A stretch of 64,000 bases of DNA from Halolamina salifodinae (lineage in GTDB: Archaea > Halobacteriota > Halobacteria > Halobacteriales > Haloferacaceae). The notes beneath the pieces were generated by a model. It worked only from the letters and a program-made list of their open reading frames with translations. It was not told the origin of the DNA and did not search any database. Location: the NCBI RefSeq assembly GCF_017874235.1, contig NZ_JAGGLC010000001.1, forward strand, positions 124,001-188,000, read 5' to 3'. Of the stretch, positions 351 through 49,908 are shown in pieces; position 1 is the first letter of the stretch, and each line of letters opens with the position of its first letter. Position numbers and translations under genes: made by a program.

Positions 351-1418
351 TCACTCCCCGTCGGTCCGGAGGTGGTGGAACACGTACGTCTGGGCGTAGC
401 CCGCGTAGGCGTCGGCGCCGCTCTCGCCGAACACCTCGTCGCGCTCCGGTAGGTCGCCACCCAGTTTCTCGCGGATGGCCCGCGAGGTTTCGGCGTAGTT
501 GCCGCCCTCGCAGTCGGGGAAGTAGTCGCCGATAGCGGTCTGGATCCACGTGTCCAGCGGGATGGCCTGCAGGTAGCCGAGCGCGAAGAGGGCGACGCAG
601 TCGGCCACCTTGTCGCCGACGCCGACGAACTGGGTGAGCGCGTCGCGAGCCTCCTCGTAGGGGAGGCCGCGTGCGTCAGCGGGATCTGCCTCGCCCGTGG
701 CGACCATCTCGGCGGTGCGCTGGACGTACGGCGCGCGGTAGCCCAGACTCAGGTCCCGCAGTTCCTCCTCGGTGGCGGCAGCGAGTGCCGCCGGAGTCGG
801 GTAGGAGTAGAGGGTACGGTCGCCCACTGCGACGGGGGTGCCATACGCCTCCCGGAGCGCGTTCTGCATCCCGAAGATCCGGCTCACCCGCATCTGTGCC
901 GAGCAGATAAACGTGATCAGGCAGGGAAACGGCGGGTCGCGCGGGAGCCGCATCCCGGGGTAGCGCTCGAACGCCCGCTGGAGTAGCGGGAGGTCGCCCG
1001 TGGCCTCGTAGATGGCTTCGAGGTCGTCGTCAAGGCGGAGCAGGTGCGTGAGAATCGCCTCCCCGTCGACTGATTCGGTGGGCTCGGCGGCGCCGGCGGC
1101 GTCCACGTCGGCGGGGACCGCGCCAGCCTCCCACTCCAACGTCCCGCCGTCGACGTGATCGGACTGCGTCCGATCGGCAGACGAGCGTCGCTCGTCGACG
1201 CCGCCGATCTGGCGGACGCGGACGACGGTCGGCAGGTCGGTGAGTCCCGGCGTCGGCGGGAGTACGGTCTCGTACCACGCGTCGCCGCCGTGGGCGGCCG
1301 ACTCGGCGTAGCCGTCGCCGTCGGCGCGCTCCCAGAGGTACGTCTGGCCGCTCTCCAGCGTCGACTGGAGGTCGAACGGTCCGGCAAGCGAGGCAACGTC
1401 GATGCGACCCGACTCCAT
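351..1418 (-). CDS. ogg: 8-oxoguanine DNA glycosylase (OGG1-type, HhH-GPD)
   Basis: 355 residues; base-excision repair enzyme that removes 8-oxoguanine and cleaves the strand by beta-lyase chemistry. The N-terminal OGG domain shows FDLQSTLESGQTYLW, and the C-terminal helix-hairpin-helix/GPD region shows VGVGDKVADCVALFALG followed by IPLDTW. By comparison with human OGG1 the Lys in GDKVADC is the Schiff-base nucleophile and the Asp in PLDTW the catalytic acid; both are present. The start at 1418 (ATG, MESGRIDV) is preferred over in-frame starts further upstream because the conserved domain begins just after it. Residues about 75-88, in a linker between the N-terminal domain and the catalytic part, are encoded by a hairpin element (1157-1196) not expected in the family. 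Confidence 0.88.
   Translation of the reverse strand: MESGRIDVASLAGPFDLQSTLESGQTYLWERADGDGYAESAAHGGDAWYETVLPPTPGLTDLPTVVRVRQIGGVDERRSSADRTQSDHVDGGTLEWEAGAVPADVDAAGAAEPTESVDGEAILTHLLRLDDDLEAIYEATGDLPLLQRAFERYPGMRLPRDPPFPCLITFICSAQMRVSRIFGMQNALREAYGTPVAVGDRTLYSYPTPAALAAATEEELRDLSLGYRAPYVQRTAEMVATGEADPADARGLPYEEARDALTQFVGVGDKVADCVALFALGYLQAIPLDTWIQTAIGDYFPDCEGGNYAETSRAIREKLGGDLPERDEVFGESGADAYAGYAQTYVFHHLRTDGE
1157..1196 (-). repeat. Intragenic two-hairpin element in ogg
   Basis: Two perfect hairpins lie in frame inside ogg. One has 8-bp arms (GATCGGAC / GTCCGATC, 1157-1164 and 1168-1175) with loop TGC. The other has 7-bp arms (GACGAGC / GCTCGTC, 1180-1186 and 1190-1196) with loop GTC. On the coding strand the linker between them reads CTGCCG, close to the CTGCCA in the NSUN-gene element and to CTGCCA following a GACGAG...CTCGTC stem in the DUF2797-gene element. 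It encodes roughly ERRSSADRTQSD. No direct target-site repeats are evident. Confidence 0.75.
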
Positions 1419-1886
1419 TACCCGAATTTCGGCGACGGGTGGGTTTCCCCGTTTCGATAGCGACCCCAGTCGCGGGGCGTGACCCGCGGGGACCTCCGTG
1501 TCGTCGCGAGGGAACTCATGCCCCGACTGTGCGACGTCGATCACCGCCGCAGCGGTTCGTTCCGCGCGCGGGTCGCGCGTCGCGGGGCAGCCACGAGAGC
1601 ACGAGGCGGAAACAGCCGAAGGCGGCGCCGAGAAACGTGCGTTTGGTCACTCGGTGGCGATCCGAACGGCCCCCTCAAAAGCCTCGCGACGGCTCAACCG
1701 CCGTACAGGCGGCGACCCGCGCCGTCGGCGACGGCGCCGGCAGCGGTCTGCATCGCGTGGCGCATCTCGGCGAAGGCGGCAGTGCGGCGTGTGGCGGTGT
1801 TCATGCCACCGGCTGACACGGGCGAGCCTTGAGTATCTTCGGGGGGTGTCACAACCGCTATGGGGCGGGCGCTCGGAGCCGAACCC
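1419..1886. other. 468-bp intergenic region with one weak small ORF
   Basis: This gap separates ogg from the MBL-fold gene. Six-frame reading shows mostly Arg-rich, low-quality frames typical of GC-rich non-coding DNA. The only frame with natural composition is the short minus-strand frame at 1694-1804, listed separately. I see no tRNA, tandem repeat or transposase remnant. The last about 80 bp should contain the promoter of the rightward MBL-fold gene. Confidence 0.5.
1694..1804 (-). CDS. Possible 36-residue small protein
   Basis: Small frame with an ATG at 1804 and a stop at 1694, encoding MNTATRRTAAFAEMRHAMQT followed by a Gly/Arg-rich tail ending RRLYGG. The composition (balanced Ala/Met/Thr with a predicted helix) is more protein-like than the surrounding frames, but there is no recognisable domain and no conserved neighbour. 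It lies alone between ogg and the MBL-fold gene. This could be chance; conservation of the frame in relatives would decide. Confidence 0.25.
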   Translation of the reverse strand: MNTATRRTAAFAEMRHAMQTAAGAVADGAGRRLYGG

Positions 1887-2720
1887 ATGATCACGAGCGA
1901 CTGGGGCGACTGGCTCCCGCGCGCAATCGACGCCGCGGACCCGGAGAGCGTGGCGGTCTGGTACCTCGGCTGCAACGGGTTCGTAGTCAAGGGCAGCAAC
2001 GGGACGACGCTGTTCGTCGACCCCTACCTCGGCACCGGCGACCCGCCGCGGACGGTGCGGATGATCCCGGTGCCGTTCGACCCCGCGGACGTCGTCGACG
2101 CCGAGGCGGTGTTCGCGACCCACGAGCACAGCGACCACGTCCACGGCGAGTCCCAGGCGCCGATCCTGGAGTCGACTGGCGCCCCGTTCGTCGCGCCGGA
2201 CGCCTCGCTCGCGGCCGCACGCGAGGACCAAGGTTGGGAGGATCGCTGGGACCTCACCGACGAGCAGTTCCGCGAGGTCAGCGAGGGCGACGTACTGGAG
2301 ATCGGGGAGTTCACCGTCCACGTCGTCGAGGTGAACGACCCCGACGCCGAACACCCAGTGGGTTACGTGTTCGAACACGACGAGGGCACCGTGTTCCACC
2401 CCGGCGATTCGCGCCCGGCCGACTCCTTCGCGGCGCTGGGCCGTGAGTTCGACATCGACCTGGGCATTCTCGCCTTCGGCACGGCGGGGATGATCCCGGA
2501 CAAGCAGACCCGCGAGCCGACGTACACGAAGTGGTACAACGACGAGGGCGAGGCCGTCGAAGCCGCCAGCGCGCTCCGACTCGACCGCCTGCTCCCGAGC
2601 CACTGGGACATGTGGAAGGGGCTCACGGCCGACCCGACTGCGCTTCACGAACACGTCGCGTCGTTCGAGCATCCGAAGCGGCTGGATCTGGTGGAAATCG
2701 GCGACCGCGTCGATCTCTGA
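1887..2720 (+). CDS. MBL-fold metal-dependent hydrolase (UlaG-like)
   Basis: 277 residues from the ATG at 1887 (MITSDWGDW); an upstream ATG at 1860 would add nine residues. The metallo-beta-lactamase fold is shown by the metal-binding motif THEHSDHVHG (HxHxDH type) at about residues 80-90, the downstream HPGDSRP that supplies a bridging Asp, and a late LLPSHWDMWK that supplies a further His. This arrangement is characteristic of the UlaG/L-ascorbate-6-phosphate-lactonase-like branch rather than the beta-lactamases. The substrate cannot be inferred. It is monocistronic, converging on the carbonic anhydrase gene 20 bp downstream. Confidence 0.8.
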   Translation: MITSDWGDWLPRAIDAADPESVAVWYLGCNGFVVKGSNGTTLFVDPYLGTGDPPRTVRMIPVPFDPADVVDAEAVFATHEHSDHVHGESQAPILESTGAPFVAPDASLAAAREDQGWEDRWDLTDEQFREVSEGDVLEIGEFTVHVVEVNDPDAEHPVGYVFEHDEGTVFHPGDSRPADSFAALGREFDIDLGILAFGTAGMIPDKQTREPTYTKWYNDEGEAVEAASALRLDRLLPSHWDMWKGLTADPTALHEHVASFEHPKRLDLVEIGDRVDL

Positions 2721-2740
2721 GGCCGTCCCGTTACTGTCGA

Positions 2741-3421
2741 TCAGTACGTCCAGCGACGCTGGACCCGCGAATCGATCTCCGGGTGGCGCTCCCGGAGTGC
2801 GTCGGGATCGGTCTCGCCGTCGACGTTGATCACGTGGACCTCGCCGCGCTTCCCGTCGTAGGCGTCCTGGAAGTCGTAGACCGCACCGACGGCCTGCACC
2901 GATTCGGGCACGTCCTCGCTCTCCATGAGGAACTCGACCTGGCGGTCGACGTTGTACTCCACGAGGTGGTTCACGGCGTCCTCGCGGGCCAGTTCGTCCG
3001 GCAGCAGATCGACGCCCGGTTCGAGTCCCGGCGCGAGCAGGTCGAGACAGTGTTCGATGCCCGGCGGCTCCGAACTGCCGTCGGTGAGTTTGTCGTACGT
3101 CGCCGTCACCGCGCCACAGCCCGTATGGCCGACGACGACGGCCACGTCGGTGTCGGTGTGGGCCAGCGGGTAGAGCACGTCGCCGGAGACGCGCGGCCCT
3201 TCCTCGGTGCGCTGGACGACGCGGTTGCCGATGTTGCCACAGCTGAACTGCCGCCCCGGCTCGTCGTTGCCCCAGAGGTGGTCCTGGAGCACCCGGGAGT
3301 CAGAACAGCAGACGGTGACCGCCTCGGGGTGCTGTTCGTGTTCGAGGCCGTCGAAGCGGTCGTCGAACGCGTCGGCGTGCCCGGCGTTACGGTCGAGCAT
3401 GGCGAGGAACGTCTCGTCCAT
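2741..3421 (-). CDS. Beta-class carbonic anhydrase
   Basis: 226 residues; catalyses reversible hydration of CO2 to bicarbonate. The beta-class zinc site is complete: CCSDSRV supplies Cys39 and the Asp41/Arg43 dyad, and GHTGCGA supplies His99 and Cys102. These are the standard Cys-Asp-His-Cys ligands. Length fits the family. The start at 3421 (MDETFLAML) is chosen because the homologous region begins there and upstream residues in the same frame are low-complexity. It converges with the MBL-fold gene and is divergent from the membrane protein at 3510, with an 88-bp shared upstream region. Confidence 0.9.
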   Translation of the reverse strand: MDETFLAMLDRNAGHADAFDDRFDGLEHEQHPEAVTVCCSDSRVLQDHLWGNDEPGRQFSCGNIGNRVVQRTEEGPRVSGDVLYPLAHTDTDVAVVVGHTGCGAVTATYDKLTDGSSEPPGIEHCLDLLAPGLEPGVDLLPDELAREDAVNHLVEYNVDRQVEFLMESEDVPESVQAVGAVYDFQDAYDGKRGEVHVINVDGETDPDALRERHPEIDSRVQRRWTY

Positions 3422-3509
3422 ACACCCACCCGCGGGCGCGTCCCGAATAGCTCCGACGGTCCCCGCCGGGGGCGAAACAGTTAGGCCATTGACCTGAGTA
3501 CGGACGTGC

Positions 3510-3998
3510 GTGGCAGACGGTCCCCGACAGCTGACCCGGGCCGTCGTCGCGCTCGTCGGCGCGACGGCCGTCGTCAGCGCCGAACTCGCCGGGCTCGCGC
3601 TCTCCACGCGGCTCTCCGTGGCCACCGCCGACGGCGCCCTCCCAGGCTCCGTCCCGCCGGTCCCGGTTCTCGCCGTCAGCGTCGCCGCCATCGGAACGGT
3701 CGTCGCCGTCCACCGGCACACGAGCGAAGGTAAGCGACTCACCGGGTCGGGCGCGGCACTGATCGTAATCGCCCCCGTCACCGCGTTCGGCGGCGGCTGT
3801 GGGTTCGCCGGCGGCGGCGTGACGATGTTCCGCAGCGGCGTCCGGCTAGCCGTCGCCGTCGGCGAGTGTGTGACGTTCTTCAACGGCGCCCTGCTGGTGC
3901 TCGGCTACGCGCTACTCGCGGCCGGGCTGTGGCTCGCGGCCGAGGAGCTACGGCTGCCGAACATCGCCGGTCTGCGGTCGCCGAAGCTCTCGGATTAG
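3510..3998 (+). CDS. Hypothetical membrane protein
   Basis: 162 residues with a GTG start. Four hydrophobic stretches are visible: about residues 10-30, 48-66, 80-108 (Gly/Ala-rich) and 120-145. This suggests a small integral membrane protein with both termini in the same compartment. I recognise no conserved catalytic motif. It ends in LRSPKLSD and overlaps the end of the convergent methylase gene by a few bases. Function unknown. Confidence 0.7.
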   Translation: MADGPRQLTRAVVALVGATAVVSAELAGLALSTRLSVATADGALPGSVPPVPVLAVSVAAIGTVVAVHRHTSEGKRLTGSGAALIVIAPVTAFGGGCGFAGGGVTMFRSGVRLAVAVGECVTFFNGALLVLGYALLAAGLWLAAEELRLPNIAGLRSPKLSD

Positions 3999-4615
3999 TC
4001 CCACGCGATCCGGAACAGTTCCACGTCGATCTCCTCGCGCTCGCGCTCGTGATGCTCGTAGAGCCGCGGCACCTCGAACGCCGCGGCGAACGCGTGGGTG
4101 ACCTCGCCGCCCTCGTCGGCGGCGAAGGACTCGACGAACGACTGGCTGCCGGCGTTGTGGATCGAGTAGGAGACCGAAGAAACGGACGCAGCGGTTTCGA
4201 GGAACGCCCGGTCGGCCCCCTCGTTGCCCGTCCGGGCGCCGAAGGGTGGGTTCGTGACGACCGTCGACACGGAATCCTCGGGCAGCGGCGCCCGGGTAGC
4301 GTCGCCACGCACCCAGTCAACCGGCGTCTCGGGTTCGACCGCGCGCTCGTTCTCGCGGGCGGTCGCGAGCGCGTCGGCGTCGCGTTCGAGGCCGAGCACG
4401 CGAGTGGGTGCGCGGCAGGCGGCCGCGAGCGCGAGCATGCCTGTCCCGGTGCCCAGATCGAGCACCGACCGACCCGCGATGTCGCCCTGTAGGTCGGCGA
4501 GGTGGAGAAGGTGTGCCGCCAGATCCGGCGGCGTCGGATACTGTTCGAGTTCGATGTCGGGGTCTGAGAACCCCGCGAGCCCGTGAAGTCGTTCAGCCAG
4601 CGCCCGCTTGCCCAT
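3995..4615 (-). CDS. METTL5-like SAM-dependent RNA/N6-adenine methyltransferase
   Basis: 206 residues. The N-terminal QYPTPPDLAAHLL segment, the SAM-binding motif VLDLGTGTGM (about 51-60) and the catalytic NPPFG tetrad region (about 122-126) identify the METTL5 branch of amino-methyltransferases. Family members methylate adenine N6 in small-subunit rRNA in eukaryotes; archaeal members are presumed to act on rRNA. Its ATG immediately follows the stop of the upstream gene at 4616, so the two are surely cotranscribed. Confidence 0.85.
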   Translation of the reverse strand: MGKRALAERLHGLAGFSDPDIELEQYPTPPDLAAHLLHLADLQGDIAGRSVLDLGTGTGMLALAAACRAPTRVLGLERDADALATARENERAVEPETPVDWVRGDATRAPLPEDSVSTVVTNPPFGARTGNEGADRAFLETAASVSSVSYSIHNAGSQSFVESFAADEGGEVTHAFAAAFEVPRLYEHHEREREEIDVELFRIAWD

Positions 4616-5011
4616 TCAGGCCGAAACGTCGAGGCCGTCGACCGAAAGGGTGACGCCTTCCCGACGGGCGCGCTCCTCGAGCGCCGAGAGCGCCGGGCGG
4701 ACCTTCTCGGCGTTGCTCAGGTCCTCGATTTCGACGCGGACGACGCCGACGCCGAGGAACGCGCCCGCGCGGACCAGATCCCGCAGGCGGTCGGCCTCCT
4801 CCTGCGTGGCGATGGAGCAGTCCTCGGAGAAGCAGGCCTCGACGGAGAGTTCCGCGGGCTGGTAGCCCTCAGCGGCGAGTTCCGCTTTCAGCTCTCGCAG
4901 GTACTCCGGCGCGGTCGTCGACAGCGACGACGCGGTGAGTTCGACGGGTTCGACGTTCGACGGGCGACAGGCCGCAACCGCGGTGTCGACTCGTGAGGGG
5001 CTCGTGCTCAT
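4616..5011 (-). CDS. Conserved haloarchaeal hypothetical protein upstream of the METTL5-like gene
   Basis: 131 residues from the ATG at 5011 (MSTSPSRVD). It contains two short alpha/beta-looking segments: VEACFSEDCSIATQEEADRL in the middle and LGVGVVRVEIEDLSN followed by an Arg/Glu-rich helix at the end. I cannot assign a family. Zero spacing to the downstream methyltransferase suggests coupled expression and perhaps a shared role in rRNA or tRNA modification; that is inference from position only. An in-frame ATG at 5038 exists but would add residues with no obvious conservation. Confidence 0.7.
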   Translation of the reverse strand: MSTSPSRVDTAVAACRPSNVEPVELTASSLSTTAPEYLRELKAELAAEGYQPAELSVEACFSEDCSIATQEEADRLRDLVRAGAFLGVGVVRVEIEDLSNAEKVRPALSALEERARREGVTLSVDGLDVSA

Positions 5012-5168
5012 ACACACCCATAGCCACTGGTTATTCAAAAAGCTTTCTCAATACGCAGTAGTAATCGCGCGTCGGCGGTGGCCGGCGCGGAGACGTGTCG
5101 GCCCGCCATCACCGCCCGAGAGCCACCCCGACGCCCGCTACCGGTTCGATTTGTGTTCCGATAGAGGA

Positions 5169-5209
5169 CGAAAAAAGCCTTATCTGTCGCGGTCACCAGA
5201 AACCTTTTA
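5169..5209 (+). promoter_or_regulatory. Probable core promoter of the TFB gene
   Basis: A run CGAAAAAAGCCTTAT (5169-5183) sits about 27-40 bp before the ATG at 5210, the position and composition expected for a BRE/TATA pair driving a leaderless haloarchaeal transcript. A second A/T-rich tract AACCTTTTAA abuts the ATG. No Shine-Dalgarno-like sequence is present. Confidence 0.45.
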
Positions 5210-6213: not shown

Positions 6214-7977
6214 TCAGCCGCTCACGAACACGACCAGCCGTCGGTTCGTCAGCCCCGTGGTCACCTCGTAGCGCTCGTAGCCCGATAGCTGCCGGCTCAG
6301 CGTCGCAGCGTGAGCGGGTGACGTGACGACGACCGGCGGGGCTGGCTCGGCGACCGCAGCGGACGAGGCGACGCTCGCAGTCTCGGCGTCGGCGCGCTCG
6401 GCGTACCACGCGAACGGGAGGCGCGCAGCGAACGCCCCCCGGTCGGCTGCGGGCACGGGCGGGCGGTCCAGCGTCGCCTCGTCGGCGACCGCGAACTGCT
6501 CGCCGACGTAGAGCACGTCCGTCCCGCCGTTGGCGGTGATCGCGACCTCCATCGCGGCCACCACGTCGTGCAGGTCGGCGTCAGGCTGTGCGTAGCCCGG
6601 CAGCGAGTCGTCAGCCGCGGGCGCGTCGTACACCTCGCCGGCGACGACGGCGCCGGTGTGGATGCCGACCCCGGAGAGCAGCAGCACCGCCGCAGCCACC
6701 CGCGCGGCGTCGCCGGAACGCTCCGCGCTCCGGCTGGCGAACGAATCGCTGCGCGATTCGTCAACGTCGCCGGCGTCGACGGCCGCCGTCGCGTGGTTCC
6801 AGAGCGCTGCGAGGCCGACCGCTGCGGGCACGGCCGCGGGTGCGAGCACGTGGACCGCCACCCACGGCTCGCTCACCTCCGTCGCCATCGGGTAGATCAA
6901 CAGGCCCGCGCCGGCCCAGTAGGTGGCGAACGCGACCGCGGGTCGGGAGCGGCCGGCGTAGCGCTCGCGGAAGAACCCATAGACGGCGAGGCCGACAACC
7001 GGGAGCGCCGCCGCCACCAGCACCTCGACGTTGTCGGCGACAAAGGGGAGCAGCGCGTGGTCGTTGGCGTGCGTCGGCGGCGCGTGGCGGCCGAGCACCC
7101 GAACCGCGAGAAATCGCTCGAGGGCGCCGACCGTCCCCGCCTCGAGCGCGGAGAGCAGCGTCGCCGGCCGGGCGAGGTCGATCCAGCCCCGCGGGACGTA
7201 GAACACCAGCGCCACGCCGACGGCGACGAGGACCCCCCGGATCAGCGCGACCTGTCGGTCGACGAGCCACGAGACGACGTTGTGGGCGCGCTCCCGGACC
7301 GCGACCGGGTCGGTGCCGCGGATCCGCGCCTCGTCGACGGTGAGCACCGCCGCGAGCAGCCAGCAGATGATCGTCGCGAGCACGAACCCGGAGGTGGTGA
7401 GCGCCAGACCGAACGCCCCCGCGGCGGCGTAGAGCGAGCGGCGGTCGCCCCGGTGGCGCCAGCGCAGCGCGAAGCCGACGGCCACGAGCGAGAACGCGGC
7501 CAGCGGGAGGTCCCCGCGCAGCACACGGGAGTAGTAGAGTAGTGGCGGCGCCAGCGTGAGGAGGATGGCGAGCGAAACCGTCTCGGCGTCGGAGAGGCCG
7601 ATTCGTGGTGGATGTTCGGCAGCGTCGGAACGGGATGGTCGTCCCAAGTCCGCCGCGCCGTCGACGACCAGCGTCGCCCGGCGGAACAGCAGCGCGGCCA
7701 GTGGGAGCAGCCCACCCACGAGCGCGACGGGCACGCGCGCCGCGGCGTCGCTGGTCAGGCCCAGCGAGAACAGCCAACGGCCAACGACGTAGAGGAACGG
7801 CCCGCCCGCGACGGGGCGGTAGGCGTAGACGCCGGTGTCGAGCGAGCGCAGCGTCCAGTAGCCCACGCGGGCCTCGTCCCAGTGGAACGGCCGGGCCCCG
7901 AGGCCGAGAACGCGGGCCAGCACCGCGAGCGCCGTCAGCGCGAGGACGGCCCGCTCGATCCGGTCGAGTCGGCGCAT
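6214..7977 (-). CDS. agl23: Flippase activity-associated membrane protein Agl23-like (GT-C type)
   Basis: 587 residues with about ten hydrophobic segments. The first luminal loop carries FHWDEARVGYW (31-41), the Asp-Glu motif typical of GT-C-fold membrane glycosyltransferases acting on lipid-linked substrates. Haloarchaeal proteins of this type are annotated as flippase activity-associated Agl23, linked to N-glycosylation. The start at 7977 (MRRLDRIER) is followed directly by the first membrane helix. Residues about 406-422, in the loop VDESRSDSFASRSAERSGD, are encoded by a two-hairpin element (6712-6761). Another Ser/Arg-rich loop near 7600-7650 (LGRPSRSDAAEHPP) may be a decayed copy. No other glycosylation genes are adjacent. 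Confidence 0.75.
   Translation of the reverse strand: MRRLDRIERAVLALTALAVLARVLGLGARPFHWDEARVGYWTLRSLDTGVYAYRPVAGGPFLYVVGRWLFSLGLTSDAAARVPVALVGGLLPLAALLFRRATLVVDGAADLGRPSRSDAAEHPPRIGLSDAETVSLAILLTLAPPLLYYSRVLRGDLPLAAFSLVAVGFALRWRHRGDRRSLYAAAGAFGLALTTSGFVLATIICWLLAAVLTVDEARIRGTDPVAVRERAHNVVSWLVDRQVALIRGVLVAVGVALVFYVPRGWIDLARPATLLSALEAGTVGALERFLAVRVLGRHAPPTHANDHALLPFVADNVEVLVAAALPVVGLAVYGFFRERYAGRSRPAVAFATYWAGAGLLIYPMATEVSEPWVAVHVLAPAAVPAAVGLAALWNHATAAVDAGDVDESRSDSFASRSAERSGDAARVAAAVLLLSGVGIHTGAVVAGEVYDAPAADDSLPGYAQPDADLHDVVAAMEVAITANGGTDVLYVGEQFAVADEATLDRPPVPAADRGAFAARLPFAWYAERADAETASVASSAAVAEPAPPVVVTSPAHAATLSRQLSGYERYEVTTGLTNRRLVVFVSG
6712..6761 (-). repeat. Intragenic two-hairpin element in agl23
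   Basis: On the coding strand: a perfect 9-3-9 hairpin ACGAATCGC-GCA-GCGATTCGT (6761-6741), linker TCGCCA, then a 10-3-10 hairpin GCCGGAGCGC-GGA-GCGTTCCGGC (6734-6712) with one mismatch, followed by GACGCC. The junction GCCAGCCGGA is identical to that in the XPB-gene element (44955-44964) but is read in a different frame. It lies in an extramembrane loop. Confidence 0.8.
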
Positions 7978-10378: not shown

Positions 10379-11233
10379 GTGCAGTTCGTGGGCTACGACT
10401 CGGGCGACGTCGACGAGAACCAGAGGCTCTCGTCTGCCAGGGAGGGACACTGTCCCTCGGGCAACCGGAAGCCGGCGGCTTCCGGTGACAACCAGAACGC
10501 TTTGCGTTCTGGTGACGGCGACCTCCTCCTCGCCGATGATGGCGAGGTCGAGTACGTCGATCTGACGCCCGGCACCGAGATCGCCTACACGCTGGGAGAG
10601 CGCCACTGCGCCGGCATCGTCGACGACGACGGCCACACGGCCTGCGGCGCCGACGGCGCCCCCTACTGCGACCAGCACAGCCACGTCTGGGTCTGTGCAC
10701 GGTGTACCGGCGACTGTCTCAAAGACGAGATGGACTGCTTCGAGGACCACGCCGTCTACCTCGCGGCGTTCGCCCCCGACACGTTCAAAGTCGGCGTCAC
10801 CCGGGAGTGGCGCCTCGAAACTCGCCTGCTGGAGCAGGGTGCCGACCGCGCGGCCCACATCCGGACCGTCGACGACGGCCGCGCCGCACGGCGGATCGAG
10901 GCCGGCATCGCCGAACGCATCCCGGATCGCGTCCGTGTCCCCACGAAGATCGACGGCTTCGGGCGGCACGTCGACGAGGCGGCGTGGCAGGAACTTCTCA
11001 CGGAGTTCGACCCCATCGAGACGTTCGAGTTTGACTACGACCTTGACCTCTCGGGCCGGCCGGTGAGCGAGACGATGGCGACCGGTACCGTTCGCGGGGT
11101 GAAAGGTCGGGTTCTCTTGTTGGACCGCGGCGGCAGCACCTACGCCGTCGACCTGCGACGGCTGGTCGGCCACGAAGTCACCGAGGGTGCCACCGACCGC
11201 GAGATGCAGTCGAGTCTGGGCGCGTTCGGCTGA
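10379..11233 (+). CDS. DUF2797 family protein carrying an inserted hairpin array near its N-terminus
   Basis: 284 residues from the GTG at 10379. A Cys/His-rich module ([28 protein letters not shown]) probably binds zinc. It is followed by an alpha/beta domain ([14 protein letters not shown]...[18 protein letters not shown]) typical of DUF2797; the biochemical role of the family is unknown. Residues about 12-45 ([17 protein letters not shown] and onwards, with two S-G-D repeats) are encoded by four successive hairpins and look like an insertion between the first beta strand and the rest. The following TFIIB-like TTTAA tract at 11256-11260 belongs to the next gene. Confidence 0.75.
10412..10512 (+). 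repeat. Four-hairpin intragenic element in the DUF2797 gene
   Basis: Four stems in a row. (A) GACGAGA/TCTCGTC (10412-10418, 10428-10434). (B) GAGGGACA-C-TGTCCCTC (10442-10458). (C) CCGGAAGCC-GGC-GGCTTCCGG (10465-10485). (D) CCAGAACGC-TTT-GCGTTCTGG (10492-10512). B-C and C-D are separated by exactly 6 nt, GGGCAA and TGACAA; C and D have 9-3-9 geometry and form a 27-nt period. The GGGCAA-CCGGAA...TTCCGG-TGACA order is repeated in gatE at 29635-29667. Confidence 0.85.
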
Positions 11234-28492: not shown

Positions 28493-30439
28493 ATGAGCGA
28501 CGACGCCCGCGACTACGAGGACCTCGGCCTCGTGGCCGGCCTCGAGATCCACCAACAGCTCGACACCGAGACGAAGCTGTTCTGCGAGTCGCCCACGGAC
28601 CTCCGCGAACCGGCGGAGGCGACCCACACGATCACCCGGGAGCTCCACCCCACCCGGAGCGAACTCGGTGAACTCGACGAGGCGGCGATGGAGGAGAGCC
28701 GCGTCGACCGCACGTTCGAGTATCTCGCCTACGACACCACCTGTCTGGTCGAGGAGGACGACGAGCCGCCCGCCCGCATCGGCCAGGAGGCCCTCGACGT
28801 GGCGATGGGCATCGCCGACCTGCTCGACGCCACCGTCGTCGATCAGGGCCACGTGATGCGGAAACTCGTCATCGACGGCTCGAACACCTCGGGCTTCCAG
28901 CGCTCGATGCTGTTGGCCCAGAACGGCGAGATCGAGACTGACGAGGGGAGCGTCGGCATCGTCGACGTGATGCTGGAAGAGGAGTCCGCCCAGCGCGTCG
29001 AGGAAACCGACGAAGGCGTGCGCTACTCGCTCGACCGCCTCGGCATCCCGCTGATCGAGATCGGGACCGCACCGGACATCAGTACGCCCGAGCAGGCCTA
29101 CGAAGCAGCCGAGCATATCGGGATGCTCCTGCGCTCGACGGGATCGGTCAAGCGCGGTCTGGGGACCATCCGGCAGGACGTGAACGTCTCCATCGAAGAC
29201 GGCGCCCGTGTCGAAATCAAGGGCGTGCAGGCGCTGGGCGACATCCGCGACATCGTCGCCGGCGAAGCAGACCGGCAGGTCGAACTGCTCGAGATCCGCG
29301 AGGAACTGGAGGCCCGCGACGCCGCGGTCGGTGAGGTCGAGGACGTGGCCACCGTCTTTTCCGACACCGACTCGGGCGTGATCCGCGGCGCACTCGACTC
29401 GGGCGGCGAGGTGCTTGCCGTGCCGCTCTACGGCTTCGACGGCCTCGTCGGCCGGGAGATCCAGCCAGACCGCCGACTCGGCACCGAACTCTCCGATCAC
29501 GCCAAGCGCGCCGGCGCGGGCGGCATCTTCCACACCGACGAACTGCCGGCCTACGGCGTGACCGAAGAGGAGGTCGAGGCCCTCAAGACCGCCGTCGACG
29601 CCGGGGAGAACGGCAGCGAGGAGCAAAGCTCCTCGGGCAACCGGAAACGGACCGTTTCCGGTGACAGCCGGCCGGAGGCCGGCGACGCCGTCGCGCTCGT
29701 CGCCGCCAATTCGGACGTTGCTGGACAGGCTATTCAGGCCGCCGCCGACCGCGCCCGGACCGCTATCGAGGGCGTGCCCGAGGAGACCCGCGGCGCCAAC
29801 GACGACGGGACGACCCGCTACCTCCGGCCGCTCCCCGGCGCCGCGCGGATGTACCCCGAGACCGACGTGCCGCCGGTCGAACCGGACCCGAGCGAGGTCG
29901 AGACGCCCGAACTCCTCACGGAGCGCGTGAAGCGCTACGCCGAGGAACTGGGGCTGGATGAGGGTCTCGCCGAGCAGGTCGCCTACGGCCGCCGGATGGT
30001 GCTGTTCGAGGAGGCCGTCGAGGCGGGCGTCGACCCCACTTTCGCCGCCTCGACGCTGGAGTCCACCCTCACGGAACTCAGTCGCGAGGGCGTCGACGTG
30101 GAGTCGATCCGCGACGACGCGCTGCTCGGGACTCTCCTGCTGGTCGAGGAGGGCGAACTGCCGAAAGAGGGCGTCAACCCCGTGCTGACGGCGTTGGCTG
30201 AGGACCCCGAACTCACGCCCGAGGCGGCGATGGAGGAGGAGGGCGTCGGCGGCGTCAGCGAGGGGGAAGTCCGCGAGGCGGTGCAGGAGGTCGTCGAGCG
30301 CAACGCCGAGCAGGTCGAGGCGGAGGGGATGGGTGCCTTCTCCGGCCTCATGGGCGAGTGCATGGGCGCGCTGCGCGGGCAGGCCGGCGGCGATCTCGTG
30401 AGCGAGGTGCTGCGCGAGGAGATCCAGAAGCGCGCCTGA
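28493..30439 (+). CDS. gatE: Glu-tRNA(Gln) amidotransferase subunit E (GatE) with an in-frame insertion
   Basis: 648 residues; archaeal GatDE converts Glu-tRNA(Gln) to Gln-tRNA(Gln), with GatE binding and phosphorylating the tRNA-bound Glu. N-terminal GLVAGLEIHQQLDTETKLFC is the amidotransferase cradle motif, followed by the AspRS-like insertion domain, and the C-terminal tail/YqeY domain ends RGQAGGDLVSEVLREEIQ. A TATA-like CTTTTTAC lies about 25-30 bp before the ATG. Residues about 376-397 (GSEEQSSSGNRKRTVSGDS... stretch) are encoded by a three-hairpin element and probably form a surface loop. GatD is not in the window. Confidence 0.95.
   Translation: MSDDARDYEDLGLVAGLEIHQQLDTETKLFCESPTDLREPAEATHTITRELHPTRSELGELDEAAMEESRVDRTFEYLAYDTTCLVEEDDEPPARIGQEALDVAMGIADLLDATVVDQGHVMRKLVIDGSNTSGFQRSMLLAQNGEIETDEGSVGIVDVMLEEESAQRVEETDEGVRYSLDRLGIPLIEIGTAPDISTPEQAYEAAEHIGMLLRSTGSVKRGLGTIRQDVNVSIEDGARVEIKGVQALGDIRDIVAGEADRQVELLEIREELEARDAAVGEVEDVATVFSDTDSGVIRGALDSGGEVLAVPLYGFDGLVGREIQPDRRLGTELSDHAKRAGAGGIFHTDELPAYGVTEEEVEALKTAVDAGENGSEEQSSSGNRKRTVSGDSRPEAGDAVALVAANSDVAGQAIQAAADRARTAIEGVPEETRGANDDGTTRYLRPLPGAARMYPETDVPPVEPDPSEVETPELLTERVKRYAEELGLDEGLAEQVAYGRRMVLFEEAVEAGVDPTFAASTLESTLTELSREGVDVESIRDDALLGTLLLVEEGELPKEGVNPVLTALAEDPELTPEAAMEEEGVGGVSEGEVREAVQEVVERNAEQVEAEGMGAFSGLMGECMGALRGQAGGDLVSEVLREEIQKRA
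29618..29682 (+). repeat. Three-hairpin intragenic element in gatE
   Basis: GAGGAGC-AAA-GCTCCTC (29618-29634), linker GGGCAA, CCGGAAACG-GAC-CGTTTCCGG (29641-29661), linker TGACAG, CCGGCC-GGA-GGCCGG (29668-29682), then CGACGCC. The linkers and CCGGAA...TTCCGG ends match the DUF2797-gene element stem for stem while the inner arm bases and loops differ. All arms are perfectly paired. Confidence 0.85.
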
Positions 30440-44616: not shown

Positions 44617-44650
44617 AGTTCCCAGTTAGACCCCGCCGTCAAAAAGCCAA

Positions 44651-44803
44651 CTACTCCTCGAGTTCGTCCCGCAGCGTCTCGATCCGTGTCTCCAACTGCG
44701 AGAGCGCCACGTCCGCGTTCATGTAGCCCTGATCGTACTCGCTGTACACTTTGTCGGCGGCGTCGAGGAACTCCTCGACCGCCTCGTCGGTATCGTCGCT
44801 CAT
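44651..44803 (-). CDS. Small haloarchaeal coiled-coil-like protein
   Basis: 50 residues from the ATG at 44803 (MSDDTDEAVEEFLDAADKVY). Two acidic helices with regularly spaced hydrophobics (ADVALSQLETRIETLRDELEE). Compatible with a small helical dimer. Divergent from the XPB gene (81 bp) and codirectional with the RDD genes. Confidence 0.6.
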   Translation of the reverse strand: MSDDTDEAVEEFLDAADKVYSEYDQGYMNADVALSQLETRIETLRDELEE

Positions 44804-44884
44804 GGCCGTCGCTACCGGGCGCATCCGGGTAAGCCGTTCGGAGCGCCCCGAAATCCACAAACGTCGCGGCGGCGAACGTCAGGT

Positions 44885-46309
44885 ATGACGCTCGCGCTCC
44901 GGTTCGAGGACGGGACCGTCCGGGCCGTGAGCAGCGGGAGCGAAGCTCCCGCGAGCCAGCCGGAACCGTCGTTTGGCGGTTCCGGCGATAGCTCCGGCGA
45001 CGACGATTCAGTGCTCGCCGCCCTCGCCCACGAACGCGAGTACCTCGAACGCGACGAGCGCAGCGGCGGCTACCGCACTCCTGCGTACCGCTACGCCGAC
45101 CTCCGGGACGCGCTCGACGACCGCGGCGTCGCGTACCGGGACCGCGTGCTCGAGACGAACTCACTCGAACTCTCCACGCGCTACCAGCTCCGGGAGTACC
45201 AGCAGGAGGCGCTGGACGCGTGGCGCGAGGCCGGCGACCGCGGCGTCGTCGAACTCCCCACCGGGGCTGGGAAGACCGTGCTCGCCATCGCCGCGATGGC
45301 GGAACTCGGCCTGCCGACCCTCGTTGTGGTTCCCACCATCGACCTGCTGGCGCAGTGGCGCCGCGAACTGGAAGCCGAGTTCGACGTCCCCATCGGCCAG
45401 TTCGGCGGCGGCGAGCAGCGCCGGGAGCCGATCACCGTCTCCACGTACGACTCGGCGTACCTCAAGGCGGATGACGTAGGCGACCAGTTCGGCTTCGTCG
45501 TCTTCGACGAGGTCCATCACCTCGGCGGCGAGGGCTACCGCGAGATCGCGCGGATGCTCGCCGCGCCCGTGAGATTGGGGCTGACCGCGACGTTCGAGCG
45601 CCCCGACGGCGCCCACGAGGAACTCGTCGACCTCGTCGGCCCGCGGGTGTTCAGCCTCGACGCCGACGACCTCGCCGGCGAGCATCTCGCGGACTACGAG
45701 ATCCGGCGGATCGAGGTCGATCTGGCCCCCGAGGAGCGCGAGGCCTACGAGGAGGCCCAGAGCACGTTCGTCGACTACCTCAATCGCTCCGGCATCTCGA
45801 TGCGGCAGGGAAGCGACTATCAGGAACTCGTGAAGCGCTCCGGCCGCGATCCCGAGGCGCGGGAGGCGCTACTGGCCAAACAGCGCGCTCGCCGAATCGT
45901 CCGCGAGGCCGACGAGAAAGTCGCGGAACTGGGGACGCTGCTGGACCGCCACCGCGACGACCGCGTGATCGTTTTCACTGCGAGCACGGATCTGGTGTAC
46001 CGACTCTCCGAGCGCTACCTCCTGCCGGCGATCACCAACGAGACCGGCGCGCCCGAGCGCCGGGAGATTCTGGATCGGTTCCGCTCGGGGGAGTACTCCC
46101 GAGTCGTGACCGCGAACGTGCTCGACGAGGGCGTCGACGTGCCTGACGCGAACGTCGCGGTGCTGCTGGCCGGGTCCGGGAGCGAGCGGGAGTTCACCCA
46201 GCGGCTCGGCCGGATCCTCCGCCCGAACGCCGACGGCTCACAGGCGCTGCTCTACGAGGTCGTCAGCGAGGAAACTGCCGAGGAGCGCGTCGCCGAGCGC
46301 CGGCGCTAG
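44885..46309 (+). CDS. XPB/Rad25-type SF2 DNA helicase
   Basis: 474 residues. Walker A LPTGAGKT (124-131), DEVHH box (208-212), motif GLTATFERPDG, and a C-terminal helicase domain ending QRLGRILRP. Archaeal XPB pairs with the nuclease Bax1 in a repair complex, and the Bax1-type gene lies 522 bp downstream. The N-terminal damage-recognition region begins after residue 40; residues 17-35 (SGSEAPASQPEPSFGG) are encoded by a hairpin element close to the start. Confidence 0.9.
   Translation: MTLALRFEDGTVRAVSSGSEAPASQPEPSFGGSGDSSGDDDSVLAALAHEREYLERDERSGGYRTPAYRYADLRDALDDRGVAYRDRVLETNSLELSTRYQLREYQQEALDAWREAGDRGVVELPTGAGKTVLAIAAMAELGLPTLVVVPTIDLLAQWRRELEAEFDVPIGQFGGGEQRREPITVSTYDSAYLKADDVGDQFGFVVFDEVHHLGGEGYREIARMLAAPVRLGLTATFERPDGAHEELVDLVGPRVFSLDADDLAGEHLADYEIRRIEVDLAPEEREAYEEAQSTFVDYLNRSGISMRQGSDYQELVKRSGRDPEAREALLAKQRARRIVREADEKVAELGTLLDRHRDDRVIVFTASTDLVYRLSERYLLPAITNETGAPERREILDRFRSGEYSRVVTANVLDEGVDVPDANVAVLLAGSGSEREFTQRLGRILRPNADGSQALLYEVVSEETAEERVAERRR
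44934..44986 (+). repeat. Two-hairpin intragenic element near the start of the XPB gene
   Basis: GCGGGAGC-GAA-GCTCCCGC (44934-44952), linker GAGCCA, then GCCGGAACCG...CGGTTCCGGC (44959-44968, 44977-44986) with an 8-nt loop that can pair further, followed by GATAGC. The sequence GCCAGCCGGA (44955-44964) also occurs on the sense strand of the agl23 element, but here it is read in a different codon phase. Confidence 0.8.
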
Positions 46310-46710
46310 AGCTGACCCTGCCAGCCGTAGGAGATACCCCCGTTGCCGGCCCACTGCTCGTAGGCCACATCGAAGACGAGGTCGAACTCGGCCTCGGTGT
46401 TGCCGTCCAGCGAGACCTGCCGTCTGGCCTCGTACTCAGTCGACCCCGACTCGCCCTGGACCGTCGCAATCCCCACGAGCGTGTCGCGCTGGCTGCTGGC
46501 GGCGGTGTTCTCGACGGTGACCGCGAAGACGAGCGAGCCGTCCTCGCCCTCGCGGGGGACCGCGTCGACGATCCGGAGGTTACGCCCGCCTTCCGGCGTC
46601 GGGCCACCTTTCGGCGTCAGCGGCGGGGTTCGCGGCCCGGACTCGTCACGGGCGCCGAGACAGCCAGAGAGGGCGACGGCGGCCAGCGGGAGGAATCGTC
46701 GGCGTTTCAC
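46306..46710 (-). CDS. Small secreted lipoprotein
   Basis: 134 residues from the GTG at 46710. MKRRRFLPLAAVALSGC is a short signal with lipobox LSGC. The mature part is Pro/Gly-rich at first, then beta-rich (FAVTVENTAASSQRDTLVGIATVQ), resembling a fibronectin-like/FxLYD-type domain. It is transcribed toward the end of the XPB gene and interrupts the XPB-Bax1 pair on the other strand. Confidence 0.65.
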   Translation of the reverse strand: MKRRRFLPLAAVALSGCLGARDESGPRTPPLTPKGGPTPEGGRNLRIVDAVPREGEDGSLVFAVTVENTAASSQRDTLVGIATVQGESGSTEYEARRQVSLDGNTEAEFDLVFDVAYEQWAGNGGISYGWQGQL

Positions 46711-46830
46711 GCTCCCCAATAGACCGGGGGACACAATCAGCGTTCCCCCTGATGGCCGAGAGACGTCCCGCGTCGAAGCCCCGAAGGCCCGCTCCGGCGG
46801 CGTTTTAGGGGCCCACCGCCTACCTCGACT

Positions 46831-48366
46831 GTGCTGCGGAAGGACCACCTCCGAGTGTCGCGAGCGGGTGGCGGCTACCACCCGCAGTTCACCGACGAGG
46901 GCGACCGAGCGCTGGCAGCGAGCCTGCTCGGGACGTTTCAGGGCCACGTCGGCGAGCCGCGCTCGCGACTCCGGGACGCGCTCGAGACGGCCGAGCGCGA
47001 GGCCGATTCGTTCAAACTCGTCCGCGGGCTGGCGGCGCTGCTGGAGCGCGAAGCCGTCTTCGAGACCCAAGCTGACGTGCCGCCGCGTCGGACCCGCCGG
47101 GCGGTCTTCGAGAGCGCGGAGTCGGTCGGCGTCGCCAGCGACGGCGAGCGAGCCGAGGCGCTCTCGCTGGCCGCGGGTCGGCTGGGCGTCGACGCCGGCG
47201 CCGTCGAGTCGTCGCTGTATGCCGACCGCAAGGAGAACCAGATCCTCGACGCGTTCGAACCGCGCTGGGACCCCGAGACGCTGCTCTCCCAGTACGACCT
47301 CTCGCTGGCCCAGACGGCGCTGTTCGACGCCACGGAGGTCCGCGTGCGCTCCTCGGAGCCCGCGGATCTGGTCAGTGCGGTCAAACGGCTGGGACTGATG
47401 TACGAGGTCCGGCGGACCGACGAGGGGCGAGAACTCGTCGTCACGGGCCCGGACACGCTGTTCTGCGCGACCCGGCGCTACGGCACGAGCTTCGCCCGCC
47501 TGCTGCGCTCGGTCGCCAAAACCGACGACTGGCGGCTCTCGGCGACCATCGACGACCGCGGGCGCGAGCGGACGATGACGCTGATCGACGAGGACGTGTC
47601 GGTACCGGGCGTCGACCCCGTGGCGGAGCCGACCTACGACTCCGCGGTCGAGTCTGAGTTCGCCGCGGCGTTCGAGAGCCTCGACACCGACTGGGAGCTG
47701 CTCCGGGAGCCGGAGCCGCTGGCAACCGGGAACCGGGTGATGATCCCGGACTTCGCGTTCGACTACGCGCCGGCGGGGGCCGAGGGGGAGGCCGTCGCCG
47801 ACCGCTTCCGGGTGTACTTCGAGATCATGGGGTTCTGGACGCCCGAATACGTCGAGAAGAAGCTCTCACAACTCGAAACCGTCGAGGACGTGGAACTCCT
47901 TGTCGCCGTCGACGAGTCCTTAGCCGCAAGCGAGGCTATCGAGGCCCGCGACCACCGGGCGATCCCCTACTCGGGCTCGGTTCGCGTGAAGGACGTGCTC
48001 GACGCCCTCCGGGAGTTCGAGGCGGATCTCGTCGCCGACGCGGCCGCCGATCTTCCCGAGCAGATCGTCCCCGACGCAGGTGCCGTAGGCTTGGAGGAAC
48101 TGGCCGCCGAACAGGGCGTGAGCGTCGACGCCGTCGAGGGGAAGTCGTTCCCCGAACACCGACTCGTCGGGCGCACGCTCGTCCGCCCCGCGGTCCTCGA
48201 GGAAGCGGGCGAGGGAATCGAGGCCGGGATGGACCTCGCTGCGGCCGAAGAGTGCCTCACGGAGTTCGGCCTCACCGACGCCTCGGCGGCGCTCTCGGCG
48301 CTCGGCTACCGGGTCGAGTGGGAGGGGCTCAGCGGCGGGACGGTTCAAGAGAAAGACGGGGAGTAG
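46831..48366 (+). CDS. bax1: DUF790 family nuclease, XPB partner Bax1
   Basis: 511 residues from the GTG at 46831. The family's N-terminal helical part and its C-terminal nuclease-like domain (FEIMGFWTPEYVEKKLSQLE) are both present. In archaea Bax1 forms a complex with XPB and has Mg2+-dependent flap/bubble nuclease activity. The XPB gene is on the same strand 522 bp upstream, with a lipoprotein gene between on the opposite strand. The two are unlikely to share one transcript without reading through that gene. Confidence 0.85.
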   Translation: MLRKDHLRVSRAGGGYHPQFTDEGDRALAASLLGTFQGHVGEPRSRLRDALETAEREADSFKLVRGLAALLEREAVFETQADVPPRRTRRAVFESAESVGVASDGERAEALSLAAGRLGVDAGAVESSLYADRKENQILDAFEPRWDPETLLSQYDLSLAQTALFDATEVRVRSSEPADLVSAVKRLGLMYEVRRTDEGRELVVTGPDTLFCATRRYGTSFARLLRSVAKTDDWRLSATIDDRGRERTMTLIDEDVSVPGVDPVAEPTYDSAVESEFAAAFESLDTDWELLREPEPLATGNRVMIPDFAFDYAPAGAEGEAVADRFRVYFEIMGFWTPEYVEKKLSQLETVEDVELLVAVDESLAASEAIEARDHRAIPYSGSVRVKDVLDALREFEADLVADAAADLPEQIVPDAGAVGLEELAAEQGVSVDAVEGKSFPEHRLVGRTLVRPAVLEEAGEGIEAGMDLAAAEECLTEFGLTDASAALSALGYRVEWEGLSGGTVQEKDGE

Positions 48367-48388
48367 ACGGGAAGAGGCGTCGTCGCGG

Positions 48389-48907
48389 TCAGTCCAGCAC
48401 CGCGAGCTCTTCCTGATACCCCTTCGGGATCCGTGAGCGGAGTTCCCCGTGGAGGTAGAGGCCGACGCCGATGGGTTCTCGCTCGCCGGCGAGTTCGTGG
48501 GCGGCGATCAGGTAGCCCCAGTCGCCGTCCCAGCGGCCGATCTGCTGGTCGTGACCTGCGGCGAACGCCGCCGCCTCACCGGGTCCGAGGTCGATCACGT
48601 TCTCCGTGGCCTCCTGGCCGAAGCGCTTCACGCCGGTCGTGGTGGGCTTCCAGTGTTCCTGTCGGGTCCGGAGGACGGTGATCCCCAGCCCCTCGACCTC
48701 GACGGGCGAGGGGAGGTTGGCGCTGAACGCCCAGATCTTCCCGGAGCCCTTCTCCCAGAACGTCACGTCCTCGAACGTCTCGGACGGGACGCCGAATCGC
48801 TCGTCCCACCAGTCGACGACCTCCTCGCGGGAGGCACGGCCCTCGACTTCTCGCTCGTCGGGGGTAGGGGGTAGACGGTCGAAGCGCTGGCCGTCGTTCT
48901 GGGTCAT
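48389..48907 (-). CDS. Putative PUA-like partner of the adjacent RNA methyltransferase
   Basis: 172 residues. The segment GKIWAFSANLPSPVEVEGLGI...RTRQEHWKPTTTGVKRFG resembles the C-terminal PUA-like domain that is fused to bacterial RsmF-type methyltransferases. A final segment (GEREPIGVGLYLHGELRSRIPKGYQEE) also fits. Its ATG overlaps the stop of the NSUN-type gene (ATGA), so the two proteins are made together, as if a single bacterial-type enzyme had been split. Confidence 0.72.
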   Translation of the reverse strand: MTQNDGQRFDRLPPTPDEREVEGRASREEVVDWWDERFGVPSETFEDVTFWEKGSGKIWAFSANLPSPVEVEGLGITVLRTRQEHWKPTTTGVKRFGQEATENVIDLGPGEAAAFAAGHDQQIGRWDGDWGYLIAAHELAGEREPIGVGLYLHGELRSRIPKGYQEELAVLD

Positions 48908-49908
48908 GCTTCCACCTCCGTCGTCTCGTCGGCGTCGCCGGTAGCGTCGGACTCAGCGCCGCCCACGCGGAGTTTCGCGACGAAGAACCCGCCCGTGTCG
49001 TTCTGGTGTGGGTAGACGCGGTGAGCCTTCTGCAGCGACTCGTCGAACGTCTGGTCCTCCCACTCGGTGATCCCGGGCGCGGTTTCGAGCGGCGCGTCCC
49101 ACTCGACCATCTCCGCGTCGGTCGTTCTGATGGCGTGGTCGACGACGGCCTCGTTCTCCTCGGGCGCGAACGTGCAGGTGGAGTAGACCACGTCGCCGCC
49201 CGGGCGGGTGAGGTCGATAGCGCGCCGGAGAACCCCCTTCTGGATGCCGACCAGCCCCTTCACGTGGCCCATCGACCACTTCTCCAGCACGTCGGGGTTC
49301 TTCCGGCAGGTGCCCTCACACGAGCAGGGTACGTCGGCGACGGCGCCGTCGAACTGCGTTCGACTGGCAGCCGGACTCCGTCCGGCGACGCCGTCCAGCG
49401 AATCGACCCCGAGGTTGTCGGTGGTGAAGTTCCGTGCGTCGTCGTTCGTGACGACGAGGTTGCTCACGCCGAGTCGCTCGGCGTTGTGCCGGAGCGCCGA
49501 GAGCCGGCCGAGGTTGTTGTCGTTGCCGATCAGGACCCCGGAGTTATCCATCAGATCCGCGAGGTGGCAGGTCTTGCTCCCGGGGGCCGCACAGGCGTCC
49601 CAGACCCGGTCGCCGGGGTCGGGGTCGAGCGCCAGCGCGGGCAGGGCCGAGACCTCCTCCTGGCCGTGGAGCCAGCCGTGGACGTAGGGCCACGACGTGC
49701 CGGGCGAGCCGTCGGGCAGGCGGAACAGCCGGTCGTTCCAGTCTACCTGCTCGTAGGTGACGCCCTCCTCCGCGAACGCCGCGCGGACGCGCTCGGGGGT
49801 GGCCCGGAGTTCGTTCACCCGGACCACCGAGGGCAGCGGCCGGTCGCAGGCGTCGCGGAACGCCTCGACATCGTCGACGAGGCGCTCGTAGCGGTCGAGC
49901 GGGTTCAT
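48904..49908 (-). CDS. NSUN/RsmB-type RNA (cytosine-5) methyltransferase
   Basis: 334 residues. SAM-binding DACAAPGSKTCHLADLM (104-120) with the acidic partner LIGNDNN, catalytic VADVPCSCEGT (190-200, the PCS cysteine) and YSTCTFAPEEN (242-252, the second conserved Cys). Substrate RNA unknown. Residues about 175-186 (AGRSPAASRTQF) are encoded by a two-hairpin element directly before the catalytic motif. Confidence 0.9.
   Translation of the reverse strand: MNPLDRYERLVDDVEAFRDACDRPLPSVVRVNELRATPERVRAAFAEEGVTYEQVDWNDRLFRLPDGSPGTSWPYVHGWLHGQEEVSALPALALDPDPGDRVWDACAAPGSKTCHLADLMDNSGVLIGNDNNLGRLSALRHNAERLGVSNLVVTNDDARNFTTDNLGVDSLDGVAGRSPAASRTQFDGAVADVPCSCEGTCRKNPDVLEKWSMGHVKGLVGIQKGVLRRAIDLTRPGGDVVYSTCTFAPEENEAVVDHAIRTTDAEMVEWDAPLETAPGITEWEDQTFDESLQKAHRVYPHQNDTGGFFVAKLRVGGAESDATGDADETTEVEA
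49348..49385 (-). repeat. Two-hairpin intragenic element in the NSUN gene
   Basis: On the coding strand: CCGGAC-GGA-GTCCGG (49385-49371), linker CTGCCA, GTCGAAC-GCA-GTTCGAC (49364-49348). The loop GCA is shared with the ogg and agl23 elements. The complementary strand reads GGCAGCCGG...CCGGCGACGCC, matching the GatE third hairpin and its right flank (ACAGCCGG...CCGGCGACGCC). Confidence 0.8.

Follow-up and report, generated by a model that had tools for sequence, protein, structure and literature searches.

Six unrelated genes in a 64,000-nt stretch of the Halolamina salifodinae contig NZ_JAGGLC010000001.1 (positions 124,001 to 188,000; hereafter the window) carry short in-frame arrays of hairpins. 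What are these arrays, and how did they come to lie inside unrelated proteins? A sequence-only reading of the window had placed them in ogg, agl23, a DUF2797 gene, gatE, an XPB gene and an NSUN gene. The copies collected here share the consensus GTY-[hairpin Y]-NGSCA-[hairpin X]-GAC, mostly 45-57 nt long, and the window elements are probably copies of a small, non-autonomous family of mobile DNA, similar to REPs and to Rickettsia palindromic elements (RPE), which would move as a folded single strand by means of a hairpin nuclease.

All six places were confirmed on re-reading. In a strict scan, an array was at least two hairpins, each with a perfect stem of at least 6 bp and a 3-nt loop, separated by a gap of at most 9 nt. 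Four such arrays were counted in the window, far above the chance level given by 200 triplet shuffles (mean 0.22, maximum 2). Over 800 kb of this contig there were 40 arrays, where five shuffles yielded 2-7, and the distances between neighbouring hairpins peaked at 4-6 nt. The agl23 and XPB elements fail the strict scan because one hairpin in each is imperfect or long-looped. The hairpins had been called perfect, but not all of them are: the second hairpin of agl23 and the first of DUF2797 are mismatched, and the second of XPB has an 8-nt loop. A blastn search with the DUF2797 element returned 61 matches in the 2.75-Mb genome, a few places being counted on both strands.

The earlier extents were too short, as the GTY and GAC ends belong to the unit. 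In window coordinates, the ogg unit (1155..1199, minus strand) has two hairpins in 45 nt and encodes VDERRSSADRTQSDH, while the 57-nt agl23 unit (6709..6765, minus strand) encodes VDESRSDSFASRSAERSGD. The DUF2797 gene holds a 108-nt composite (10409..10516, plus strand) of a 57-nt unit with a second unit of 51 nt (10439..10489, plus strand) nested in its linker. The gatE insertion (29612..29683, plus strand) comprises three hairpins in 72 nt. A unit of about 60 nt, whose edges are not sharp, lies close to the start of the XPB-like helicase gene (44930..44989, plus strand). The RsmB/F (NSUN) methyltransferase gene contains a 45-nt unit (49345..49389, minus strand), both strands of which match our covariance model (R1, built on 24 units), and its orientation is ambiguous.

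The free modular multi-hairpin build proposed at first gave way to a two-hairpin unit, which may be tandem or nested. In 66 of the 79 parsed pairs, both reading directions counted, the two loop centres lie 22, 25 or 28 nt apart, which corresponds to unit lengths of 45, 51 and 57 nt. Stems are of 10 bp in 107/170 cases and of 8-9 bp in 40/170, with A-T usually at only one of the first two pairs, and loops are of 3 nt in the aligned units. The Y end reads CGTC or CGTT in 72/117 units and the X end, on the other strand, in 75/117, the first C being a host base. As for the linkers, described earlier as conserved 6-mers, a core NGSCA is indeed conserved, but the length is mostly 4-6 nt and there is no fixed 6-mer; 56 of the 72 linkers listed (85 two-hairpin units were parsed in all) end in CCA. 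Head-to-tail tandem units meet at a GAC|GTY joint. The 10-mer GCCAGCCGGA shared by agl23 and XPB is read in different frames, as had been observed, yet a unit start on the codon boundary is the general rule.

Evidence for mobility comes from five same-genus genomes (G001, G002, G003, G005 and G006). Every window copy is an extra stretch that is missing in three to five of the relatives compared. The agl23, gatE and NSUN copies are each missing in all five. The ogg copy is missing in three of four (G002, G003 and G005; G001 was not in the comparison) and is shared, identically, by G006. The DUF2797 composite is missing in G002, G003, G005 and G006, and G001 has the 57-nt outer unit only, a difference of exactly the 51-nt nested unit. 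The XPB copy is missing in G001, G002, G003 and G006, with length differences of 51-72 nt, and G005 has a diverged copy at the same place. At the gatE place, most of the listed protein matches from other genomes are shorter or broken. Further pairs of empty and filled sites were found beyond the window, for example AACGTCGAC|GTCGGG when empty and AACGTCGAC|unit|GTCGAG when filled. The alignment of hosts with same-genus genomes bears out the view of in-frame insertions in unrelated proteins that some relatives have and others lack.

The same comparison disposes of most of the case for palindromes that arise and are renewed in place through template switching, with no mobility at all. Arms that differ and still pair would suit such a process, as would the XPB copies of our genome and G005, which by eye are one compensated pair apart. 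Nevertheless, template switching does not explain presence and absence coupled with the end sequence, linker and preferred site that the copies have in common, and the DUF2797 copies retain, by eye, uncompensated mismatches. We find this explanation barely credible; the common ends and the empty sites refute most of it already.

Pfam confirmed the hosts as OGG, DUF2797, GatB/GatE, XPB-like and RsmB/F proteins, while the protein labelled agl23 had no Pfam match. Residues 374-397 of GatE, the insertion, fall between the two stretches aligned to the solved GatE structure 2d6f, of which the first ends at query residue 372 and the second begins at 396, and the NSUN insertion lies within a stretch that is gapped against 1ixk. 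The AlphaFold model of the NSUN protein was too poor to be used (mean pLDDT 41.7). The suggested location in loops is supported only by absence in relatives and by the gaps against solved homologues of GatE and NSUN.

Where do the units insert? For the site statistics, units lying directly against another one, repeated flanks and short matches were left aside. Intergenic units sit at GNC|GNC in 14/43 cases against 1.4% of positions as background. Among the 26 sense copies of our contig that begin on a codon boundary (phase 0), GAC is the codon just before the unit in 11 and the codon that closes it in 18, one of them a cut match. No consistent target duplication was seen across the unit sites compared. 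GAC on both sides could mimic a 3-bp duplication; it was taken as the unit end because it ends units after other preceding codons too. In NSUN both the preceding and the last codon are GGC, which is compatible with duplication. Targeting of hairpin tips was also considered and rejected: flank complementarity, measured at 129 of 140 sites, did not exceed that of permuted flanks in genes (4.05 vs 4.02) and in the intergenic class (3.52 vs 3.56), which includes loci without gene calls.

These features leave room for another enzyme. The same mobile element could be a tiny circle with a GAC|GTC junction, which a site-specific recombinase joins to GNC|GNC without any IS200/IS605 nuclease. The lack of a consistent target duplication would fit, the tandem joint GAC|GTY resembles the target form, and there is no Y1 gene in 9/40 genomes holding at least five matches. 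By itself, however, a recombinase does not account for the paired arms and the GNA triloops described below, and we regard it as rather unlikely.

The site preference bears directly on reading frame and strand. Genes were called by a simple script of our own. On our contig, 64 of 107 matches were kept after removal of overlaps, 33 of them in called genes, and 26 of the 33 are in sense orientation with GTY starting on a codon, two of them weak matches (251446, E 0.23; 516544, E 0.038). The seven exceptions are NSUN, the unit 732489, an inner DUF2797 match spanning two units and four weak matches (E 0.18-1) that are likely to be chance. The unit 732489 is contained in C1 732285-732827 (C1 being our contig), minus strand, a likely gene miscalled on the other strand, in which it is sense and in phase. 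In the relatives' stretches, all 11 gene matches are sense and in phase 0 (73 matches in all, some of them orthologues of our own copies). When the best matches of 30 genomes were taken, the same was true of all seven genic copies, five from other genera and two from the same-genus G006, where "in gene" meant a score above 20. Intergenic matches make up 29/64 on our contig and 61/73 in relatives. Lengths are divisible by three in 41/44 gene matches against 63/90 intergenic ones.

Two causes can be separated here. Most of the phase bias follows from the site preference, since phase 0 holds for 17,398 of the 21,512 genic GNC^GNC points. Stop codons alone do not account for the strand and phase bias: of the six readings, five are each free of stops in at least 58 of 95 distinct units of length divisible by three. 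The sense phase-0 peptide is a hydrophilic loop (mean GRAVY -1.05, charge -1.0) and the antisense phase-0 peptide is less hydrophilic and basic (GRAVY +0.10, charge +2.35); selection against the latter would account for most of the strand bias.

Are the hairpins maintained as DNA or as RNA? In 35 units from genomes and plasmids, 7 of them from this genus, standard pairs fill 97.0% of cells against 86.2% in shuffles, and both sides have changed in 15 of 20 pairs against 5.7. This covariation agrees with the proposal that palindromy is kept while arms vary. Among 63 distinct 57-nt units of the genus, 1260 cells comprise 1203 Watson-Crick pairs, 17 GU, 16 AC and 24 others; as GU and AC are about equally frequent, there is no sign of a one-strand RNA. 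The loop-closing pair is C-G in 152/156 hairpins against 133/229 controls. Counting 3-nt loops only, 63 are GNA and 31 are TNC, which is GNA on the other strand, giving 94/156 hairpins against 24/229 control hairpins of the contig, where composition at the two loop positions would by itself give 39%. DNA minihairpins with GNA triloops are extraordinarily stable (Hirao 1994 and Yoshizawa 1997, both cited in the accessible text of PMC6479982). The excess of GNA/TNC loops points to DNA hairpins rather than mRNA structure.

This evidence also tells on the view that the units act as structures in the mRNA of their host genes, either in regulation or in processing. Genic copies are nearly all sense, GU outnumbers AC (36 to 20) in a larger set, and on the Y-to-X strand, which is the sense strand in genes, GNA exceeds TNC there by 25 to 8. 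Yet GNA exceeds TNC intergenically too (38 to 23), GU and AC are balanced in the clean 57-nt set, and peptide selection covers most of the strand bias. Moreover, the hosts are unrelated, the units are missing from most orthologues compared and, by the shares given above, many matches are intergenic. With Rfam 15 at the gathering score, the window elements had no match, the sole match in the window being a tRNA. Taken together, these results make an mRNA role highly improbable.

The matches have a positional link to IS605. The model matched 11/34 TnpB loci (one weakly), 7/30 Y1 loci and 1/30 gatE loci, the last being our own; two of the loci, L251 and L258, are one insertion sequence (IS). The matches in L258, L261 and L264 stand a short way 5' of tnpA; those in L239 and L228 are within the loop of the left-end palindrome CCCCTTCC..GGGAGGGG, and those in L282 within the loop of a CCCCGCC..GGGCGGGG one. 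On plasmids, 15 of 17 copies were opened (H5 and H15 lie outside the 15), and five of the 15, H6, H7, H8, H9 and H11, lie 111-228 nt 5' of an IS200/IS605-type gene; Pfam confirms four of these genes, and that at H11 is known by transposase annotation only. A GCAC linker is common to these five and to H10, which has no IS gene annotated nearby. One subfamily thus resides in IS605 left ends. Separately, several units stand on both sides of one tnpB gene in L228 (G045), a candidate for IS-carried units, and the sole Y1 (TnpA) match of our own genome, L061 at C4 63721-64068, has by eye a tnpB-like gene alongside.

Such positions could also mean that the copies are attackers of IS605 ends, belonging to the SMR-A class of Haloquadratum, their gene insertions being off-target. 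Copies do lie in or beside IS605 left-end palindromes, and SMR-A elements, according to the available text of PMC3119063, insert in such palindromes without target duplications. According to the same text, however, SMR-A is about 110 bp, conserved and has prominent terminal repeats, in contrast to variable-arm units of mostly 45-57 nt. There is no general excess of flank complementarity, and hence no hairpin-tip rule, and the Haloquadratum plasmid PL47 has no match, which is not decisive. On balance, we judge membership of that class unlikely.

Returning to a family of mobile DNA moved by a hairpin nuclease, we suggest the following course. The mobile form would be one folded strand of DNA, and a nuclease that recognises hairpins, most likely an enzyme of the IS200/IS605 Y1 (HUH) type, would act in trans to cut and rejoin it. 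Its preference for GNC^GNC would set most gene insertions on codon boundaries. Purifying selection may then purge most antisense copies, leaving those that encode hydrophilic loops. If movement requires well-folded hairpins, the copies able to move would keep their pairing. A broader proposal, that these are order-wide single-stranded DNA hairpin transposons, selected both as DNA, for C(GNA)G hairpins and the GNC^GNC site, and as peptide, for the one harmless reading, which steadily add in-frame surface loops to proteins and are driven by IS605 Y1, is put forward only tentatively.

Several observations weigh against mobility of this kind. Mobility is read from presence and absence alone, and no movement was seen. 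Covariation is partly built in, because the search for copies used a structure model or a unit as query, and the GU excess of the larger set (p 0.044; 167/176 elements) is what an RNA role would predict. Around the ogg unit, 59 nt (window 1148-1206) are identical between our genome and G006, while of the adjoining 60 nt on either side 53 and 52 are identical; such identity amid differing flanks in two species is beyond simple decay, and recent transfer, conversion and constraint are candidate causes. The NSUN unit is antisense on the model's better strand, though both of its strands start on a codon boundary. The antisense phase-2 peptide (GRAVY -0.55, charge -0.79) is neither basic nor hydrophobic, so selection against antisense copies is not accounted for in every phase. 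As to the enzyme, some matches at TnpB loci lie in neighbouring genes (L222, L223), the gatE loci are a housekeeping control and not a mobile-element control, and the GCAC-linker subfamily could be an old resident of one IS lineage rather than a marker of the enzyme. Besides the genomes that lack Y1, the rank correlation of match number with Y1 number is weak (0.31, p 0.054), on which a dose effect of Y1 was set aside.

The family is widely dispersed, as the covariance-model search of this genome and other haloarchaea showed. Within the order, R1 matches occur in 102 of 118 genomes, among which near relatives are over-represented; a phylum sample has them in 32/196 genomes, 28 of them within the order and four outside it with weak matches. 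These four (G142, G151, G158 and G254) have best E values of 1.9e-4 to 5.8e-4, by chance or through older spread. Among 72,556 plasmid records 17 match, and every one is haloarchaeal; Natronomonas pharaonis PL131 and Halobacterium sp. DL1 are represented. An 18-mer found in species genomes, many of them bacterial, occurs in at least 108 stretches, and nine of the 108 listed have model support (L287, L302, L316, weakly, L318, L341, L352, L357, L367 and L389); of the nine, all but L367 and L389 are titled, six as haloarchaea and L316 as 'Actinarchaeum halophilum'. Carriage by viruses was considered and dropped: 26 viral contigs share the 18-mer and 0/26 have a model match.

On our own contig, C1 about 240955-241560 and 660110-660850 are intergenic islands of several hundred bases, crowded with hairpin units and having flanks in common, and similar islands occur near 493, 544, 686 and 731 kb. 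The 241-kb island seems by eye to have inverted ends near GGCGTTGAC and resembles a unit-loaded miniature inverted-repeat transposable element. An autonomous parent, with single hairpins flanking a transposase gene, was looked for by eye in C1 alone, where the one recurring single hairpin noticed was an intergenic CGAGGGAG hairpin at two places.

How do the units compare with known systems? Two hairpins per mobile unit are found in the double-hairpin elements of fungal mitochondria, which are organellar. Two inverted hairpins also make up the REPINs, thought to be mobile and non-autonomous like our units; as far as the accessible part of PMC6006769 describes them, they differ in a GTAG-type tag, a dedicated, IS200-like RAYT gene and a largely intergenic location. 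Among haloarchaea, the SMRs of Haloquadratum walsbyi show no target duplications and hit IS605 palindromes, and their mobilisation was called enigmatic (Dyall-Smith et al. 2011, PMC3119063). SMR-A and PATE thus share with our units the haloarchaeal host, the absence of a transposase and of target duplication, and the link to IS605 ends, and our units are perhaps close to the SMRs. They differ in that SMR-A is of high identity with prominent terminal repeats, our units having variable arms and 3-nt complementary ends, and some PATE are remnants of IS605; the available part of that paper makes no mention of in-frame gene copies for either. In the literature searched, which covered subscription journals only in small part, no description of the present haloarchaeal units was found.

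The likeness to RPE, drawn from the sequence at the outset, stands: RPE (Ogata et al. 2000, 2002, via the accessible parts of PMC6649704, PMC10969869 and PMC3733652) are in-frame palindromic repeats in many unrelated genes, as are the present palindromes in six unrelated hosts. Compared by description, RPE are about 150 bp (PMC10969869), whereas the haloarchaeal units are short, two-hairpin and site-preferring. In-frame coding palindromes are known from Rickettsia and some other bacteria (PMC3733652, in the part available). A parallel archaeal class, present in most sampled genomes of the order, makes the mode of movement and the shaping of proteins directly testable, through the site preference, the empty sites, the DNA-hairpin signature and the positional link to IS605.

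The build had been held to be different from that of the Rickettsia elements, and here the comparison corrects the earlier view, since the units come close to the bacterial CGTC-tagged REP dimers, which include RPE-4 and RPE-6 (Di Nocera et al. 2013, PMC3733652, on whose available text the following rests). CGTC-tagged REPs have CCA tails, are mostly dimers and are in some cases intragenic, and no dedicated transposase is known for them. An outer CGTC-type tag, a CCA-type tail, dimers and heterogeneous arms are common to both, and so is the plan tag-hairpin-tail tail-hairpin-tag. Both have copies within genes, of which more than half in CGTC-tagged REPs are dimers or groups, encoding 20-30 residues. 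The bacterial stems, however, measure 8-9 bp and have AT in positions one and two, against mostly 10 bp in the haloarchaeal units; the loops are of 4-5 nt against 3 nt, and the spacers mostly of 20-100 bp against mostly 4-6 nt. Moreover, CGTC-tagged REPs were described from bacteria, the word 'archaea' being confined to the reference list of that paper, while the present units are haloarchaeal with one subfamily beside IS605 genes. Although by description they work like CGTC-tagged REPs, the units are not filed as members, because loop length and stem rule differ.

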